From the IMG/VR virus record IMGVR_UViG_3300047453_000235, positions 1 to 35,436 of that record: a DNA stretch of 35,436 nucleotides. One strand, written 5' to 3'. The notes under the pieces are model-generated. The model did no database searches. It was given only the letters and a program-made list of their open reading frames with translations, and was not told where the DNA came from. Each line of letters starts with the position of its first letter. Within the stretch, counting starts at the first letter, position 1. The position numbers and the translations under genes are program-made. This document shows positions 21,296 to 32,793 of the stretch, piece after piece. Source of the stretch: a virus.

Positions 21296-21718
21296 ATGCA
21301 GTGGACTTATAAAGGTAAGAAAATAGACGAACTTCCGGAAGATTGCGAAGCATTTGTTTATCTAATCACTAACATCACTGATAATCGCAAGTACGTAGGC
21401 AAAAAACTAGCTAAATTTAAGACAACTAAGCCACCACTCAAAGGCAGAAAAAACAAAAGACGCGGAACTAAAGAATCAGATTGGAGAGACTATTGGGGCT
21501 CCAGTGATAACTTATTAAGAGACGTTGAAGAATTAGGCACTGATAAATTCACCAGAGAAATATTACATTACTGTAAAAGCAGAGGCTTAGCAAGTTACTT
21601 AGAGGCTAAAGAACAGTTTGACCGTAGAGTACTAGAAACAGACGAGTATTATAACGGAATTATTAATGTACGGGTCGGCGGTTCTAAAATTCTAAAAGAA
21701 GAATTACGTAAATTATAG
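21296..21718 (+). CDS. GIY-YIG-like putative endonuclease
   Basis: This 140-residue protein has a GIY-YIG-like layout. VYLITN at residues 21-26 stands for the first strand motif, KYVGKK at 32-37 for the second, a basic stretch (KGRKNKRRG) follows, and an acidic residue in SYLEAKEQF (E103) and an asparagine in NGIINVRVGG occupy the places of the catalytic Glu and Asn. The first motif departs from strict GIY. It is the last gene of the gp47-gp46 operon, 19 bases after the preceding gene, with no strong ribosome site. A DNA-processing nuclease fits the context; a homing-type enzyme is an alternative, but no intron or intein is seen beside it. Confidence 0.7.
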   Translation: MQWTYKGKKIDELPEDCEAFVYLITNITDNRKYVGKKLAKFKTTKPPLKGRKNKRRGTKESDWRDYWGSSDNLLRDVEELGTDKFTREILHYCKSRGLASYLEAKEQFDRRVLETDEYYNGIINVRVGGSKILKEELRKL

Positions 21719-23011: not shown

Positions 23012-25171
23012 ATGAAACTCAACGAAGTACTCACAAGCAAGACTCAAACTATATTAAATGAAGGCTGGCAAGATCTTAATGAAGCACAGCAAAATTATTT
23101 AACAAGGTTTGAATTAGAGCTTTGGCCACTGGTTGAGCAGTATTCAATACTAGCAGAAGCAGAACTTACACCAGATCAAATACAATCAATCTTCAAAGGT
23201 GCTGAAGAAACAGCAATGGCCAGTGGAGATAATAAAACTGCACTAGGTAAAGTTGGAGCGGCGGCTAAGTTACCCGTTGATCTAGCTAAAAAAGTTGATG
23301 CAAAGATTAATGAGCTAGGCAGACTAGCACAAAACGCAGGCCCAGTTAAAAATGCTGATGCAAAGTTTGAAGAACTTAAAAAGAAAATTGGTTCAAGCGA
23401 CAGTAAAATTGTTGCAGGCGTTAATAAAATTAGTGATTGGGCAAAAGCTAATCCAGGTAAGGCAACACTAGCAGTAGGTATACTAACAACCATTGCGGCA
23501 TTTGCAGGAGGACCACTAGGTGGTGCGGCCGCAGGTCTAGTACTACGTGGTACTAAAGATTTATTACAAGGTGAAAAACTTTCAACAGCAGTTGGTAAGT
23601 CAGTTAAAACAGCGGCATATGGTGCTCTTGTTGGAGCAGGCTTTAGATACTTGTCAGATAACATTATGGCCAACATGGCACTTGCAGATGAAGCTCAAGC
23701 AGATGCTATGATGAAAGGGTTTGAAGATGCAAACTTTGAAAAGGCAGTTGACGGTGCTATTGCTGATGCAGGATTTGATAAAGGTGTACTTGACGGTGCA
23801 ATGCTTCATAAATCATCAGGTAACATTAACGGATTCTTTTACAACTACCACACAGTTTTTAAACCAGACGAACTTGCACAATATAAAGATTTAGTAGCGG
23901 CAACACAGTCAGTAAAAGTATTTTCGCCAGAGTATTATAAAGCGGCAGGACAACTGCACGAATTTCTTTCTGCAACACAAACAGCAAACTCAGATCTTAC
24001 AACACTAGCACTTGCTATTAAAGACATTCCAAAAGATGCGTTAACAAGTGATCAGATAGATGCTGTAATTGCTGTACTTGATGATGGCGACAAAGCAATA
24101 GCGGCAGTTAACGATGCAGGCGGAGCAATAGCGGCGGCGGCACAAGGTGCGGCGGCAACAGTTGATGATGCTAAAAAAGAAATGCACAAAGTTAAACCTG
24201 TTGCACCAGAAGAAATGAAACAACTGGAACTTGATCTTAAAGGCGGAAGTGATGCAACACCTGTAGATAAAAACTTTGACAAGAGTCAAAAACTTTCAGA
24301 CTTTGGAGCAGTAGGAGATAAAGCAGAATCAATTGATTATGAAGATGCATTTAACGAATACTTACAAGAAGCAGATCCAGCACAACAAGAACTACCATTA
24401 GACAATCCTAATTCACTAGGTGCTAAACTAAAACGTGGTGCAGGTAAAGTTGCAAGTAAAGCCGCAGGAGCAGTTAAGCAAGGTGCGGGAGCAGTTGCTA
24501 AAGGTGCCAAAGGAGCAGTTGGTGCAGTTAAGCAAGGTGCTAAAGATGTAGGTAACAAAGTTACTGCTAACAAACTTAATAAAGATTGGAAGAAGATGGG
24601 TGAACCAACTGATTCCGGTAGCATTGTAAATATTTTATCAGGTGCAGGATTAACTAACGATCAGATAAGCAGTATTGCAGGATCAACACAAGCACCAATT
24701 AGTCCAGACGAAGTAACTAAAGCTGATGCACAAACACCTACAGATGGTGCCGCAGACGCAACACAAGCGTCAACAGCAAGTGATAATACAAAAGACACAC
24801 AAACACCAGCTAAACCAACTAAAGCACCAGCAGAACCTGCTCAAGCTGAGCCTACAAACACAGGTGCAAAGAACTTAGACAGTACAAATACTAAAGGCGC
24901 TCCAACTAAACCAGGCAAACAAGAACCATCTAGTAAACCAACAACGCCTAAAAAACCGGGTAGCAACACAGCTACACCTACACAAAGCAATGTTAAAGCA
25001 CTAGCACAAAAAATTAAACAGTCTGGTGCAAATACAGACAGTATCAAACAAGACCTAGTAGGTGGTAGTACTACATCGCAAGGTAGCACAGTTGATTTGC
25101 CAGACTTAGCAACAAGAATTGCTAAAGCAGGTGTGCAGAAACAAGTACGACAGATGTTAATTGCAAAATGA
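23012..25171 (+). CDS. Large putative internal/ejected virion protein
   Basis: This 719-residue protein, family not recognised, begins MKLNEVLTSKTQTILNEGWQ. LNE at residues 15-17 (and again at 22-24) is an (L/I)-x-E site like that used by gp21, and the same LNE occurs at the predicted gp23 cleavage site. Residues about 150-180 form a hydrophobic Gly/Ala segment (GKATLAVGILTTIAAFAGG), with a second at about 200-215. Residues 475-515 are Gly/Ala/Lys repeats (GAGAVAKGAKGAVGAVKQG) of amphipathic type. Residues 570-660 are a Pro/Thr/Ala linker, followed by a short C-terminal domain (DLPDLATRIAKAGVQKQVRQ). It is in the late unit with the 171-residue protein. A protein packaged in the head and ejected through the host envelope would fit these features, but a lysis or tail role is not excluded. 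Confidence 0.65.
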   Translation: MKLNEVLTSKTQTILNEGWQDLNEAQQNYLTRFELELWPLVEQYSILAEAELTPDQIQSIFKGAEETAMASGDNKTALGKVGAAAKLPVDLAKKVDAKINELGRLAQNAGPVKNADAKFEELKKKIGSSDSKIVAGVNKISDWAKANPGKATLAVGILTTIAAFAGGPLGGAAAGLVLRGTKDLLQGEKLSTAVGKSVKTAAYGALVGAGFRYLSDNIMANMALADEAQADAMMKGFEDANFEKAVDGAIADAGFDKGVLDGAMLHKSSGNINGFFYNYHTVFKPDELAQYKDLVAATQSVKVFSPEYYKAAGQLHEFLSATQTANSDLTTLALAIKDIPKDALTSDQIDAVIAVLDDGDKAIAAVNDAGGAIAAAAQGAAATVDDAKKEMHKVKPVAPEEMKQLELDLKGGSDATPVDKNFDKSQKLSDFGAVGDKAESIDYEDAFNEYLQEADPAQQELPLDNPNSLGAKLKRGAGKVASKAAGAVKQGAGAVAKGAKGAVGAVKQGAKDVGNKVTANKLNKDWKKMGEPTDSGSIVNILSGAGLTNDQISSIAGSTQAPISPDEVTKADAQTPTDGAADATQASTASDNTKDTQTPAKPTKAPAEPAQAEPTNTGAKNLDSTNTKGAPTKPGKQEPSSKPTTPKKPGSNTATPTQSNVKALAQKIKQSGANTDSIKQDLVGGSTTSQGSTVDLPDLATRIAKAGVQKQVRQMLIAK

Positions 25172-25323
25172 AACAGTATTTAAAAAATCTAATTAACTGG
25201 CACGAACAACATATACATGATTTCCAAAAATGCACAAAGCTATCCGACTATCAAATGATGTGGACAGCCTTTGCTAAAGGAGCATTATTTTCGTGGGTTA
25301 TATTTTATTTGATTTTCTGCTAA
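25168..25323 (+). CDS. 51-residue single-pass membrane peptide
   Basis: A short gene starts at the ATG that overlaps the stop of the 719-residue gene (ATGA, 4-base overlap). It encodes MKQYLKNLINWHEQHIHDFQ, then KCTKLSDYQMMWTAF and a C-terminal hydrophobic stretch ALFSWVIFYLIFC that could span a membrane. The coupling overlap, balanced amphipathic N-terminus and clear hydrophobic end support a real gene too short for ordinary gene callers. It ends 3 bases before the convergent minus-strand reading frame. Function unknown; a membrane partner of the upstream virion protein is one possibility. Confidence 0.65.
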   Translation: MKQYLKNLINWHEQHIHDFQKCTKLSDYQMMWTAFAKGALFSWVIFYLIFC

Positions 25324-25326
25324 ATC

Positions 25327-25557
25327 CTACCAGAACGGTTGCCCAGTCTTTTTAGCAGTCTCTAAGTTTTCTTTAATTAGTTTAGCGAATATTTCTCTAT
25401 CTTCAGGACCCACTTGATACATTTCTTCAAGACTAATTGCACCACGCATGTACCAACACAGGCGTGCAAGTTCCATCTTGATGTTTTTTGTCTCGTTTTC
25501 TAGGTTGTCGACCAGTCTTAGGATATCCTCTAGAGACTTAGAAGCTATCCTTATACG
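25327..25557 (-). CDS. -1 frame extension of gp26 (probable frameshift product)
   Basis: A 76-codon reading frame in the -1 phase relative to gp26 runs from within its last codons to a TAG at 25327-25329. It has no ATG, GTG or TTG near its beginning; the upstream boundary is a TGA inside the gp26 frame about 18 bases before the slippery run. The first ATG is internal (25476), lacks a ribosome site and would leave 49 residues (MELARLCWYMRGAISLEEMY, then PEDREIFAKLIKENLETA, ending KKTGQPFW). The region from ELARLCW onward looks like a conserved compact helical domain. With a -1 shift at T TTT TTC the product would be a 362-residue gp26 fusion. The position matches T4 gene 51, which lies beside gene 26. 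Independent start at 25476 is the main alternative. Confidence 0.7.
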   Translation of the reverse strand, partial: RIRIASKSLEDILRLVDNLENETKNIKMELARLCWYMRGAISLEEMYQVGPEDREIFAKLIKENLETAKKTGQPFW

Positions 25558-26414
25558 AAAAAATTTGATTGATCAAACGAAACAGGCATTTCCCATTGCT
25601 TAGGTGCGCCTTCTTTGATTTCTTCTTCTGTTGCGTCAACTGTGATTGGCTCTAACGTAAACTTTTTCTTTTGTGATTCCATACTTTCAACAACAGAAGA
25701 ATAAAACTTCTTGTCTGCATTTTGTATAAACTGTTGAATGTGTAATTTGTCAGTTACAACATCTTCACCTGTTTGGATCGATACAATTCCTTGCATGACC
25801 ATATCAACTGTAATACTTGTTAAGCGTTGGAATGCTTGATTAAAGATTTCTAGTTTTTGTTCTTCTGTCATATCATCTTCTTGTATGACTGAAGCAATAC
25901 GCTGTTCTTCAAAAGTCTTAGTTGCAACTTTTGTAAACTCACGATACGTTTGCGGCCTTACTGTAAGGGTAAGCTCGTCTATTGTAAGAGTATCATCAAA
26001 CGCAACATTTTGAAACTTGTCAAGTACTACTCTTAAGTCTAGGTCAAATTTACGTTCTAGTTTTGTATTTGGGATTTTAGAAGTTAATTCTAATTTCTCC
26101 CCGTATGTGGCAATTCTAATAGCAACCAATAGTGTATCAATATCAAGTGTTGGTATGTCCCAACCGTTTTTAATATTAGGTACACAACTTTGGATAACAT
26201 CAACTGTAGATTGACCGTTAAGTAATGCATCAGGAGTTTTAAACATAAGTTCATCTCTTGCCGTCATTGCATAAACAGGGAATTCCATATTGTCTGTTAC
26301 TTCTAAACTTCCATTAGGATACCATCTGCCGTTGCTTGGCAACTTAATGTAAATTTTTGGTTGCCTAAAATACTTCTGTAACGGATTGGCTCCGCTTCTC
26401 TCTATTTCTGGCAT
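25551..26414 (-). CDS. 26: Baseplate hub assembly protein gp26-like
   Basis: This 287-residue protein belongs to the T4 gp26-type baseplate family. The signature is IKLPSNGRWYPNGSLEV (about residues 23-39), then MTARDELMFKTPDALLNG and VIQSCVPNIKNGWDIPTLDI with IRIATYGEKLEL. In T4, gp26 takes part in hub assembly along with gp51, gp28 and gp29. T4 gp26 has 208 residues; the extra length is mainly a charged C-terminal part (residues 190-287). The start has CCGGAGAA just upstream and a late-type CATAAATA box 38 bases before the ATG. The gene is divergent from the tape-measure-like gene. The last codons hold a frameshift signal (see the -1 extension), so it may serve as a tail assembly chaperone. 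Confidence 0.85.
   Translation of the reverse strand: MPEIERSGANPLQKYFRQPKIYIKLPSNGRWYPNGSLEVTDNMEFPVYAMTARDELMFKTPDALLNGQSTVDVIQSCVPNIKNGWDIPTLDIDTLLVAIRIATYGEKLELTSKIPNTKLERKFDLDLRVVLDKFQNVAFDDTLTIDELTLTVRPQTYREFTKVATKTFEEQRIASVIQEDDMTEEQKLEIFNQAFQRLTSITVDMVMQGIVSIQTGEDVVTDKLHIQQFIQNADKKFYSSVVESMESQKKKFTLEPITVDATEEEIKEGAPKQWEMPVSFDQSNFFV
25557..25566 (-). promoter_or_regulatory. -1 ribosomal frameshift slippery site
   Basis: In the gp26 frame the end reads TCA AAT TTT TTC GTA TAA. This contains the slippery heptamer T TTT TTC (25563-25557) and also A AAT TTT (25566-25560). The zero-frame stop is one codon further. Five bases past the heptamer, AGGATA (25551-25546) can pair with TATCCT (25525-25520) to make a 6-bp stem at the usual distance of a stimulating structure, though it is weak. 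Confidence 0.65.
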
Positions 26415-26487: not shown

Positions 26488-29121
26488 ATGGTTGATGTCA
26501 CATACAGAGGCGGTGGAATGGATGGAGTTACTAGCAATGCGGCTAGTGAAGCTACTCTCCAACGTCTAGTTGCACTAATGGAAAAAGGCTCCAAGGGCGG
26601 TGGTGCGGCCACTGAAAAAATGGCAAATGACGTCAAAACCAAAGGCGTTGCTATATCTAAAGAAGATAACAAGGCTACAGCAGAAGGTACTGAAGCTAAG
26701 AAAGACGCAACCAAAGCACAGAAGAAACTTTCAGAACGAGTTAGAAATACTGCAAAAGCATTTGATAGATACTCATTAGGACTATTCAGCGGAATAGGTA
26801 ATACTATCCAAACATTTGGTGGTCTTGGTAAAGAACTAATTGCTGGCGGTAATCGAATAAGTGACTTTGGACAGCATGTTACAGGACTAATATCAAAATT
26901 TCCTATTGTAGGCGGCGTGATTGGTCAGTTTGGCCAAACAATGCTGAATGTACTTGATAATCAAATTGACATGTACAGATCATTGTCTGGAGCAGGTATT
27001 GACTTTGGTTCTAGTATGTTTGAAATGCAAAGACGTGCCGCTGAAGCAGGATTAAACATGGCTACCTTAGCAGGTACAATACAAGAAAATTCACAGATGT
27101 TAGCAGTAGCATTTGGCGGCGCAACTACAGGTGCTGATAGATTTTCTAAAATTTCAAAATATGTACAGCAATCACAAACAGATTTTTCTAAACTAGGTAT
27201 GACAATGGAAGATGTAACTGAGTTTACAGCTGACTATATTGACTTACAAAGAATTCAAGGTAGATTGAAAGATCGTTCTGATAGAAGTCTTGCTAAAGGC
27301 ACACAGAATTATATTATGCAACTTGATGCACTTGCTAAAATTACAGGTATGTCTAGAAAGCAAGCCGCAGAAGAATTAAAAGCTCAAAGTACTGATAAGA
27401 GATTACAAGCATTGTTCATGAACATGGATTCTAGCGTTCAAGAACAAATGAATGCTAGTTTAGCATTGATCAAAGGCGGAAGTCCAGAAATGGAAGACGC
27501 AATAAAAGAATTGATTGCAACTAACGGTGCTCCATTAAGTGACTTTGGAAAGAGTTTGCTACGAACTAATCCAGAGTTTGCAACAATGGCACAAGGATTG
27601 AGAGATGGTTCTTTATCAGCAGATGATTTTGCAGAGATGACTAACTTGCAAGTAGAAGAAGCAAAAAGGTTTGTTAAGGAAAATGCGGCAGTAATTGCAC
27701 AATCACAAGCACTAGGTGATACTACATATGATGCTGTATTAGCACTAGCAAAAATGGGTGAAGTTGGTGGAAAACTTAGTGATGCAGAACAAAAACAATT
27801 AGATGCTATTGCGGCTAAAGATAAAACACTTACTGACTTTGATAGTATGATTGAAAAGATACGTAGTACTATCTTAGTTAAATTGCTTGACTCAGGTATA
27901 TTTGACAAACTGCAAAAAGTGATGTCAGACCTTACAGCATGGTTCAACAAAGACGAAACACAAACATCTATTCAGGGATTTGTTGATAGACTAGGAACAT
28001 TGTTTGACAACCTTGGTACAATGGTTGAAGACTTTAAAAAAGATTGGGGCAAGTTAAGCATTGGTGAACTAGTAACCAAGTATCTTATTAATCCTATCAA
28101 AACATTATTTGGTGCTGACACAGGTCCGCCACCAGGACATCCGGAGCATAATAAAAATGCAGGTTCGAAATCAAGTGGACTAATGGGAGGATTGTTTGAA
28201 TCATTAGGTCCAATAATTGAAAAATTTGAATCGTGGGGTAAAGCATTAATGTGGGGCGGTATTGGTGCCGCGGCTGTATTAATTGGATTCACAGCGGCTG
28301 TTGCGGCTATGGCGGCTCCGTTAGCATTAGCAACGCCAGGCGTTTTGGCAATTGGAGTAGCATTTGCCGGAGTAGGTGTAGCAGGATTTGGAATTGCGGC
28401 GTTGATAGATTCGATCACCACATCTGTTGACAATGTTGCAGTTGGATTGAAAAAGTTTGAAGACCTTGATTCAAAAAAATTAGGTGACGTTGGTGGGGCC
28501 TTAAAACCACTTACAGATAATATTATGGGTCTTGCTAAAGGCGGTGTTGTTGCATCGTTTATGAGTGAAGGCGTATTAGAAAAAATTGCCGCAGGCGTTA
28601 AATCGTTTGAAGGTATTGATTCTAAATCAATGAAGGATATGGGTCCTGCATTAACTAGTTTACAAACAGGTATTGCGGCATTTACCGGTGACGGTATTAT
28701 GGATAGCTTTAGTAAATTCATTGGCGGATTGTTTGGCAATGATGGTGGAATGAAAGATATGGCTGACGACCTTGAGGCGTTTGCTGATATTGATTCCGCT
28801 GGAATTAAAGCTATTGGAGATGGGTTACAAGGCATTGCGGCATATATTGAAACTATGGATGGTGCAAACCTTAAACAAGTAACCAAAAACTTAAAAGAAT
28901 TAATTAAACAAATTGGACAATACAACGAAGAATACAAAAATATGGATGCTGAAACCAAAGCATCGTTTACTAAAGTATTAAATGTCAATAATGAGAGTCA
29001 AGATAAGTCGAGTAGCTTACTGAATCAGTTAAATAGTACTAACACACTTATATTAGATGAACTTAAAAAACAAACTAAAGGTGGAAAAGCTATGACAAAC
29101 GCAATATCAGGAGCGGCATAA
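26488..29121 (+). CDS. Tape-measure-like tail protein (gp29 role)
   Basis: This 877-residue protein is Gly/Ala/Lys-rich, largely helical, and has a long hydrophobic stretch at about residues 585-645 (GIGAAAVLIGFTAAVAAMA and GVLAIGVAFAGVGVAGFG), as is usual in tail tape-measure proteins that line the tube and enter the host envelope. The N-terminal 90 residues are charged and helical. The C-terminal 250 residues contain three loosely repeated units built around KFEDLDSKKLGDVGGAL, SFEGIDSKSMKDMGPAL and AFADIDSAGIKAIGDGL. T4 gp29 (590 residues) plays this role; I cannot show homology by eye, so the call rests on composition, size and its place beside gp26. A late box lies upstream, and its stop overlaps the portal start (TAATG). 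Confidence 0.65.
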   Translation: MVDVTYRGGGMDGVTSNAASEATLQRLVALMEKGSKGGGAATEKMANDVKTKGVAISKEDNKATAEGTEAKKDATKAQKKLSERVRNTAKAFDRYSLGLFSGIGNTIQTFGGLGKELIAGGNRISDFGQHVTGLISKFPIVGGVIGQFGQTMLNVLDNQIDMYRSLSGAGIDFGSSMFEMQRRAAEAGLNMATLAGTIQENSQMLAVAFGGATTGADRFSKISKYVQQSQTDFSKLGMTMEDVTEFTADYIDLQRIQGRLKDRSDRSLAKGTQNYIMQLDALAKITGMSRKQAAEELKAQSTDKRLQALFMNMDSSVQEQMNASLALIKGGSPEMEDAIKELIATNGAPLSDFGKSLLRTNPEFATMAQGLRDGSLSADDFAEMTNLQVEEAKRFVKENAAVIAQSQALGDTTYDAVLALAKMGEVGGKLSDAEQKQLDAIAAKDKTLTDFDSMIEKIRSTILVKLLDSGIFDKLQKVMSDLTAWFNKDETQTSIQGFVDRLGTLFDNLGTMVEDFKKDWGKLSIGELVTKYLINPIKTLFGADTGPPPGHPEHNKNAGSKSSGLMGGLFESLGPIIEKFESWGKALMWGGIGAAAVLIGFTAAVAAMAAPLALATPGVLAIGVAFAGVGVAGFGIAALIDSITTSVDNVAVGLKKFEDLDSKKLGDVGGALKPLTDNIMGLAKGGVVASFMSEGVLEKIAAGVKSFEGIDSKSMKDMGPALTSLQTGIAAFTGDGIMDSFSKFIGGLFGNDGGMKDMADDLEAFADIDSAGIKAIGDGLQGIAAYIETMDGANLKQVTKNLKELIKQIGQYNEEYKNMDAETKASFTKVLNVNNESQDKSSSLLNQLNSTNTLILDELKKQTKGGKAMTNAISGAA
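28444..28854 (+). repeat. Imperfect protein-level repeat in the tape-measure-like protein
   Basis: Three related units occur, each of the form (K/S/A)FE/AD-(L/I)-D-S-K/A-x-(L/M/I)-K/G, followed by about 40 residues with a predicted hydrophobic patch: LKKFEDLDSKKLGDVGGAL, VKSFEGIDSKSMKDMGPAL and LEAFADIDSAGIKAIGDGL. Repetition of this kind is consistent with a rod-like structure. The DNA copies have diverged, so the repeat is old. Confidence 0.6.
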
Positions 29122-31818: not shown

Positions 31819-32793
31819 ATGGCTAATCAAAATAAATTTGAAGCAATGCTTGAAAAGCTAATTGCTGAAGACAAAGCGGGAGCAGAAGAATTGTTCCACG
31901 AAATCGTAGTTGAGAAATCACGCGATATCTATGAAAACTTATTAAAAGATGACGTAGAAGAAGTTGAAGTAGACGAAGCAACTGATGAAGAAGTAGATGA
32001 AACTACTGACGAAGAAGTTGATGAGTCAAGCAACGACGAAGAAACTAACGAAGCAACTGACGAAGAAGTTGACGAAGCTACTGACGAAGAAGTAGACGAA
32101 GCAACTGATGAAGAAGTAGACGAAGCTTCAGACGAAGAAGTTGACGAAAACTTTGTAGACGAAATTACACCAGAAGCTGAAGATGACATGGGTGGCGATG
32201 CCGCTGATGACATGATGGCAGATATTGCCGCAGACAGCGAAGAAGGTGACAAAGAAGATGACGAAGACATTGAAGACAGAGTCACTGATTTGGAAGATAC
32301 ATTCGATGACCTAAAAGCTGAATTTGACGCTATGATGGCTGATAAAGACGGTGACGAAGACGAAGGCGATGCAGAACCAGAAATGGATATGGACGCTGGA
32401 GACGACGAAGGTGATGACGATGAGGCAGAAGAAGCTATTGCTCCTGAAGCCGATCTTGAAGTAGCACCAGCATTTGAAGGCAAAAAAGATGCCAACACTG
32501 AAATGCGTGAGTATGTTGAAAAAGTAACAGCTAATATGGGCGACAACGGTGATAACACTAAGTCTCCAGTAGCTGGCGCTAACGACATGGGTGGAACTGC
32601 TGGAAACATTGCACAAGGTGGCGATGAAAAAGGTGGGAAAGCTGACTCGGCTAAAGAAGATAACGCAGGGAACGTTAACGTACCAGGCGGAAAAGCTTCA
32701 AAGTCAATGAGTGCTAACTCAAAAGGCCACGGCGCTGAGAAAAAAGGCGCAGGCGAAAGTGGAACTGATAGTAAAAGTACTATCGGATCTTAA
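31819..32793 (+). CDS. Acidic prohead core protein (gp67/68-like role)
   Basis: This 324-residue protein starts with a helical region (NKFEAMLEKLIAEDKAGAEE, then ELFHEIVVEKSRDIYENLL). An extremely acidic stretch follows, with seven roughly 8-residue repeats of VDEATDEE form (residues 51-110), more Asp/Glu-rich sequence with a coiled-coil-like DRVTDLEDTFDDLKAEFDAM (about 150-170), and a Gly/Lys/Ser tail. The place directly before gp21 and gp22, and the first 45 residues, resemble marine-phage prohead core proteins. Such proteins fill the scaffold core and are degraded by gp21. A strong AGGAGGA ribosome site and an upstream late box suggest high expression. T4 gp67 is also acidic but far shorter (80 residues). 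Confidence 0.7.
   Translation: MANQNKFEAMLEKLIAEDKAGAEELFHEIVVEKSRDIYENLLKDDVEEVEVDEATDEEVDETTDEEVDESSNDEETNEATDEEVDEATDEEVDEATDEEVDEASDEEVDENFVDEITPEAEDDMGGDAADDMMADIAADSEEGDKEDDEDIEDRVTDLEDTFDDLKAEFDAMMADKDGDEDEGDAEPEMDMDAGDDEGDDDEAEEAIAPEADLEVAPAFEGKKDANTEMREYVEKVTANMGDNGDNTKSPVAGANDMGGTAGNIAQGGDEKGGKADSAKEDNAGNVNVPGGKASKSMSANSKGHGAEKKGAGESGTDSKSTIGS
31969..32148 (+). repeat. Tandem 24-base / 8-residue acidic repeat
   Basis: About seven copies of VDEATDEE with one 9-residue unit (VDESSNDEE) and one TNEATDEE unit. The DNA copies differ at many third positions (GCA/GCT, GAT/GAC, GTA/GTT), so the protein repeat has been kept while the DNA diverged. Copy number might vary among relatives. Confidence 0.85.

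Follow-up and report, generated by a model that had tools for sequence, protein, structure and literature searches.

A short and a long tail-assembly chaperone produced from one gene by a conserved G-T frameshift are well described in phages such as lambda, and T4 was still excepted from this rule in a 2016 review (PMC5009743). T4 gp26 and gp51 appear in the literature as chaperones of hub assembly; assembly requires gp51, which is absent from the particle, and in 2010 it was essential and of unknown function (PMC3004832). Cyanophage gp51 was described as missing its first ~200 residues, a truncation that was left unexplained, and Aeh1 was said to be without gp51 (Sullivan et al. 2010, PMC3037559). 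An earlier note on the DNA studied here knew of no described frameshift at this locus in T4-like phages and suggested a missing chaperone of the marine group; it was preceded by Vladimirov, Gautam and Davidson (2022, Virology 566:9-15), who, as cited in PMC12846349, identified chaperone genes in these phages. We analysed a gp26-type locus in the window, meaning the whole stretch of 35,436 nucleotides. With a probability of about 0.93, we consider that the gp26 gene would give two tail-assembly chaperones, a short form and a -1 frameshifted long form. The sequence evidence consists of the slippery site, its phase, the coding of the extension, the RNA structure and the homology to T4 gp26 and gp51; that ribosomes shift in vivo, how often they do so and that the products act as chaperones are inferred. 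The features of the locus are the following.

25551..26414, minus strand: short form of the gp26-type protein (287 aa), TAC-N-like; PF12322 T4_baseplate / phrog_150.
25563-25557, minus strand: T TTT TTC, the -1 slippery heptamer; its zero-frame register is X XXY YYZ and the gp26 stop follows one codon later.
25566-25560, minus strand: second heptamer, A AAT TTT, read from the sequence.
25551..25553, minus strand: gp26 zero-frame stop TAA, read from the sequence.
25327..25557, minus strand: -1 extension, a C-terminal, all-helical domain, by translation, homologous extension in relatives, purifying selection and AlphaFold.
25520..25551, minus strand: RNA hairpin, putative shift stimulator, beginning 5 nt past the heptamer; window fold -13.1 kcal/mol.
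26488..29121, plus strand: putative tape-measure protein, 877 aa; match to a Phosso protein in the same place (E 2e-11); phrog_14121.

The gp26 product of the window belongs to PF12322 by Pfam comparison (E 2.4e-9, 37.6 bits, above the curated cut-off of 24.5) and matched phrog_150 of PHROG (E 1.1e-13), and the sequence upstream of its ATG holds a ribosome-site-like GGAG. On the minus strand its reading frame ends with TCA AAT TTT TTC GTA TAA, in which T TTT TTC lies in a register fit for tandem slippage. From the heptamer onwards the -1 frame has no stop before a TAG at 25329-25327, which leaves 76 codons after the slip (25557-25330), and the predicted fusion of gp26 residues 1-286 with this extension would have about 362 aa. 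The earliest ATG of the -1 frame is at 25476, 29 codons past the slip, and no Shine-Dalgarno-like site was found ahead of it in the window sequence. The gp26 3' end, both heptamers, the open -1 frame and its early ATG without a ribosome site had been described in the earlier note and hold in the sequence. On the plus strand, a 51-residue ORF with a hydrophobic C-terminus (25168-25323) is convergent with the frameshift gene; 3 bases separate its stop from the -1-frame TAG.

To compare this locus with its relatives, gp26 (PF12322) loci were sampled from IMG/VR contigs and annotated phage records. After identical copies had been dropped, the sample comprised 219 loci besides T4, in 72 clusters at 70% identity; S13, Yut2 and Aeh1, which also show the frameshift layout, are not part of it. 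Every one of the 219 distinct loci showed an in-frame X XXY YYZ heptamer at most 30 codons from the stop and an open -1 frame that carries the C-terminal domain, which is the pattern of a conserved -1 slippery site near the 3' end by which a chaperone pair is recognised. The zero-frame stop lies 1 to 11 codons past the slip site. The heptamer is T TTT TTC at 214 loci, T TTT TTT at three, T TTT TTG at one and A AAT TTT at one. In one lineage (L233:4316-4552), A AAT TTT replaces the T6 run at the same position. T TTT TTC occurs at none of 110 other xFF sites of the same genes, compared with 214 of 219 at the slip site, and a slippery run by chance was rejected on this count. Elsewhere in the gp26 genes, in-frame T TTT TTN has a frequency of 1.8e-4 per codon. 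The Phe codon of these genes is TTT in about three quarters of cases, and the second codon at the slip site is TTC in 67 of the 72 clusters.

The frameshift layout was found in 80 of 80 Kyanoviridae and in giant phages, among them CBB, GAP32, 121Q, RaK2, Munch, XaC1, BF, PA5oct, SCTP-2, Atu_ph07, Phosso and XacN1. Enterobacteria, pseudomonads and rhizobia are among the hosts of the giant phages that have it. It is also present in Straboviridae outside the T4 group and their relatives (65, Ci1 and D479). Restriction to the marine T4-like group, as it had been suggested at first, is contradicted by these giant phages and by the Straboviridae Aeh1 and 65.

On the one hand, the downstream frame could be a separate small gene, the annotated gp51 of cyanophages, expressed from its own start or by re-initiation at the gp26 stop. 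It is annotated as a separate gene in many cyanophages, where its ATG is mostly at codon 5 or 8, and an ATG overlaps a TGA stop (ATGA) in about 11 of the 72 representatives. On the other hand, the position of such a start is not conserved, the first ATG of the -1 frame lying between codon 3 and codon 50 depending on the lineage, and a Shine-Dalgarno sequence is almost never present: it precedes a start within 30 codons in 6 of 72 representatives, compared with 61 of 72 for the gp26 starts. Between the slip site and the first ATG, purifying selection acts in the -1 frame only. For codons 3-24 after the slip, which are ahead of most ATGs, the cyanophage group had a -1-frame pN/pS of 0.18 and the window group one of 0.38; in the other two frames the ratio was 1.2-2.4. 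The FFR residues at the junction are nearly invariant, and FFRxRIL, right after the slip site and ahead of any start, is conserved. A separate gene also leaves the invariant T TTT TTC and the full-length-fusion T4 gp51 unexplained. When relatives were aligned, as the earlier note had proposed, the slippery run and the -1 phase were kept everywhere and neither start nor ribosome site was conserved, and an independent start of the downstream frame was rejected accordingly. We consider a separate gene very improbable.

The window-type extension and the cyanophage/T4-type extension match weakly in sequence, and a direct profile comparison of the window-type extension with T4 gp51 gave no significant match; position and context argue for their homology, which is weak by sequence. 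The C-terminal domain is unannotated in S-PRM1, ACG-2014d, S-WAM1 and Aeh1 (L107, L280, L281 and L279).

The RNA 3' of the slip site folds far more stably than coding needs. The small stem that had been noticed 5 bases past the heptamer corresponds to the hairpin at 25551-25520, whose z against shuffles was only -1.4 for the window by itself. Compared with dinucleotide shuffles, the 60 nt behind the site gave a mean z of -1.23 (other positions, -0.10 to -0.66). Compared with synonymous-codon versions, the same RNA gave a mean z of -2.02 (p 1.6e-21), and the control positions gave -0.04 to -0.31, except for -0.83 at the position 60 nt further downstream. An 8-pair helix is paired at 86% in 63 window-group sequences, versus 38-54% when slid, and 18 of its cells show double changes, versus a shuffled mean of 6. 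RNAalifold found no single consensus hairpin for the window group, whose lineages, by eye, seem to use different 3' arms, and no stable hairpin was found behind the slip site in some lineages outside this group, for example Aeromonas 65, Vibrio D479 and Rhizobium I1_9. Therefore, many of these phages have such a hairpin as an aid, but not all of them. Transcriptional slippage, in which RNA polymerase would slip on the T6 run and mixed mRNAs would give both proteins, is hardly credible: the six-T run is present, but polymerases need longer runs to slip efficiently, the X XXY YYZ register with its terminal C is preserved in 67 of 72 clusters without lengthening of the run, and the RNA structure behind it is selected at ribosome spacing. 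The programmed -1 frameshift of a tail-chaperone-like gene, as first proposed in the earlier note, is the best-supported reading, given the 219 of 219 loci, the selection in the -1 frame and the RNA signal.

The 2022 study by Vladimirov and colleagues reportedly describes frameshifting for several groups of T4-like phages and, for T4, genes 26 and 51 as separate ones. That T4 has these two separate genes had also been pointed out in the earlier note, and it agrees with our comparison: T4 gp26 and T4 gp51 both match PF12322, and gp51 runs through the junction. Aligned to an HMM of the fusion made in silico, T4 gp26 reaches the FF junction and goes no further; gp51 of T4, IME13 and phiP4-3 continues past it into the extension, as does the RB43 long gene. 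In a search of 12 sequences, an extension-only HMM matched all four long genes, with E from 8e-15 to 9e-10, and no short gene. These alignments indicate that T4 encodes gp51 as a long form of its own, in frame throughout. A tree places the four short and the four long genes in a single group (97/96), next to the frameshift forms of other Straboviridae, which fits one duplication that replaced the shift. This tree has long branches and midpoint rooting, and in its rows for Cr30 and probably phiM7 the extension is cut, with the slip site set at T7; the other rows are unaffected. We think it probable that frameshifting by -1, together with a selected hairpin on the 3' side, is ancestral across the T4-like assemblage, including the giant and uncultivated marine phages, and that it was lost once, in the group to which T4, RB43, IME13 and phiP4-3 belong, through a single duplication into gp26 and gp51. 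In RB43 (L274:2501-3794), two PF12322-type genes stand in tandem on the same strand, the long one before the short one, whereas the T4 pair is divergent.

The annotations of gp51 can be explained in the same way. The ~200 residues missing from cyanophage gp51 are accounted for, because the missing part is gp26. In Aeh1, as predicted, the C-terminal domain was found in the -1 frame after GAT TTT TTC GAC TGA, and the apparent absence of gp51 is explained because the domain sits in that frame.

AlphaFold gave confident models of both parts, with pLDDT of 87 for gp26 and 90 for the extension. The earlier note had proposed structure prediction against the gpG/gpT chaperones; when the gp26 and extension models were compared with the PDB, no match at E <= 0.001 and no fold like that of HK97 gp13 or lambda gpG was found. 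This does not exclude a chaperone role, since such chaperones are very diverse. In BFVD, the gp26 model matched A0A191ZCG4, J7KJQ2, A0A0K2QR08, A0A7R8R5F3 and A0A514TUY8. These are uncharacterised and about 500-690 residues long, and they come from the giant phages Erwinia Special G and phiEaH2, Ralstonia RSF1, Klebsiella Eowyn and Aeromonas PS1. Judged from the model, these proteins may be the chaperones of those giant phages.

The divergent neighbour at 26488-29121 had been called tape-measure-like. Its size, its hydrophobic middle and its match to the correspondingly placed gene of Phosso are consistent with this, and the sole family match, phrog_14121, carries the less specific annotation 'virion structural protein'; we regard it as a putative tape-measure protein. 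The gene in this position is annotated as tape measure in Cr30, and the cyanophage neighbour gene has weak tape-measure family matches. Other genes of the window include a 719-residue Ala/Lys-rich protein without a confident family match in the Pfam/PHROG comparison (23012-25171, +), an acidic protein, encoded downstream of the portal gene, in which a 'DEATDEEVDE' repeat recurs many times almost unchanged (31819-32793, +) and a SegE-like GIY-YIG homing endonuclease that adjoins gp46 (21296-21718, +).

Under the frameshift reading, the majority of ribosomes would end at the TAA and give the short form, and a fraction would slip by -1 on T TTT TTC, aided by the hairpin 5 nt downstream. The slipped ribosomes would make the long form, which gains a helical domain of 76 residues that is annotated in cyanophages as 'short gp51'. 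As with lambda gpG/gpGT, the tape-measure protein would be coated by the short form, the long form would recruit the tail-tube protein, and both would depart before the virion is complete. In the T4 group, gene duplication would have taken over from the shift, with gp26 as the short form and gp51 as the in-frame long form. If so, in hundreds of marine T4-like phages what is annotated as 'gp26' and as 'short gp51' would be one gene with two products, and clear mutants would become available for testing gp51 function.

In comparison with known systems, the locus shares with lambda gpG/gpGT a short and a long form from one gene, a -1 shift near the 3' end and a putative tape-measure gene nearby; the chaperones of lambda and other long-tailed phages are reviewed in PMC5009743. 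However, no sequence or fold match to solved structures was found for the proteins of the window, and the parallel would be one of gene logic, without demonstrated fold likeness. The slip site T TTT TTC also differs from that of lambda, G GGA AAG, and the tape-measure-like neighbour is divergent here. The chaperone locus of Vandenendeviridae and Andersonviridae (PMC12846349) likewise combines a poly-T motif, conserved close to the 3' end, with a -1 frame that stays open from genome to genome; its motif is GTTTTT, it belongs to other phage families, and the likeness is one of motif and frame. The cyanophage 'gp51' (PMC3037559) is the C-terminal extension described here, and the frameshift supplies its absent part. 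The closest system is that of the T4-like chaperones gp26/gp51 of Vladimirov et al. (2022), which, as far as their citation in PMC12846349 goes, belong to the same gene family, PF12322; T4 itself differs in having two genes in place of a shift. On the same footing, the main idea was already published in 2022, and the gain of this study is in breadth, the RNA signal and corrected annotation. Possibly new are the hairpin behind the slip site, the single-duplication tree and the wider range, which takes in giant phages and uncultivated marine ones.
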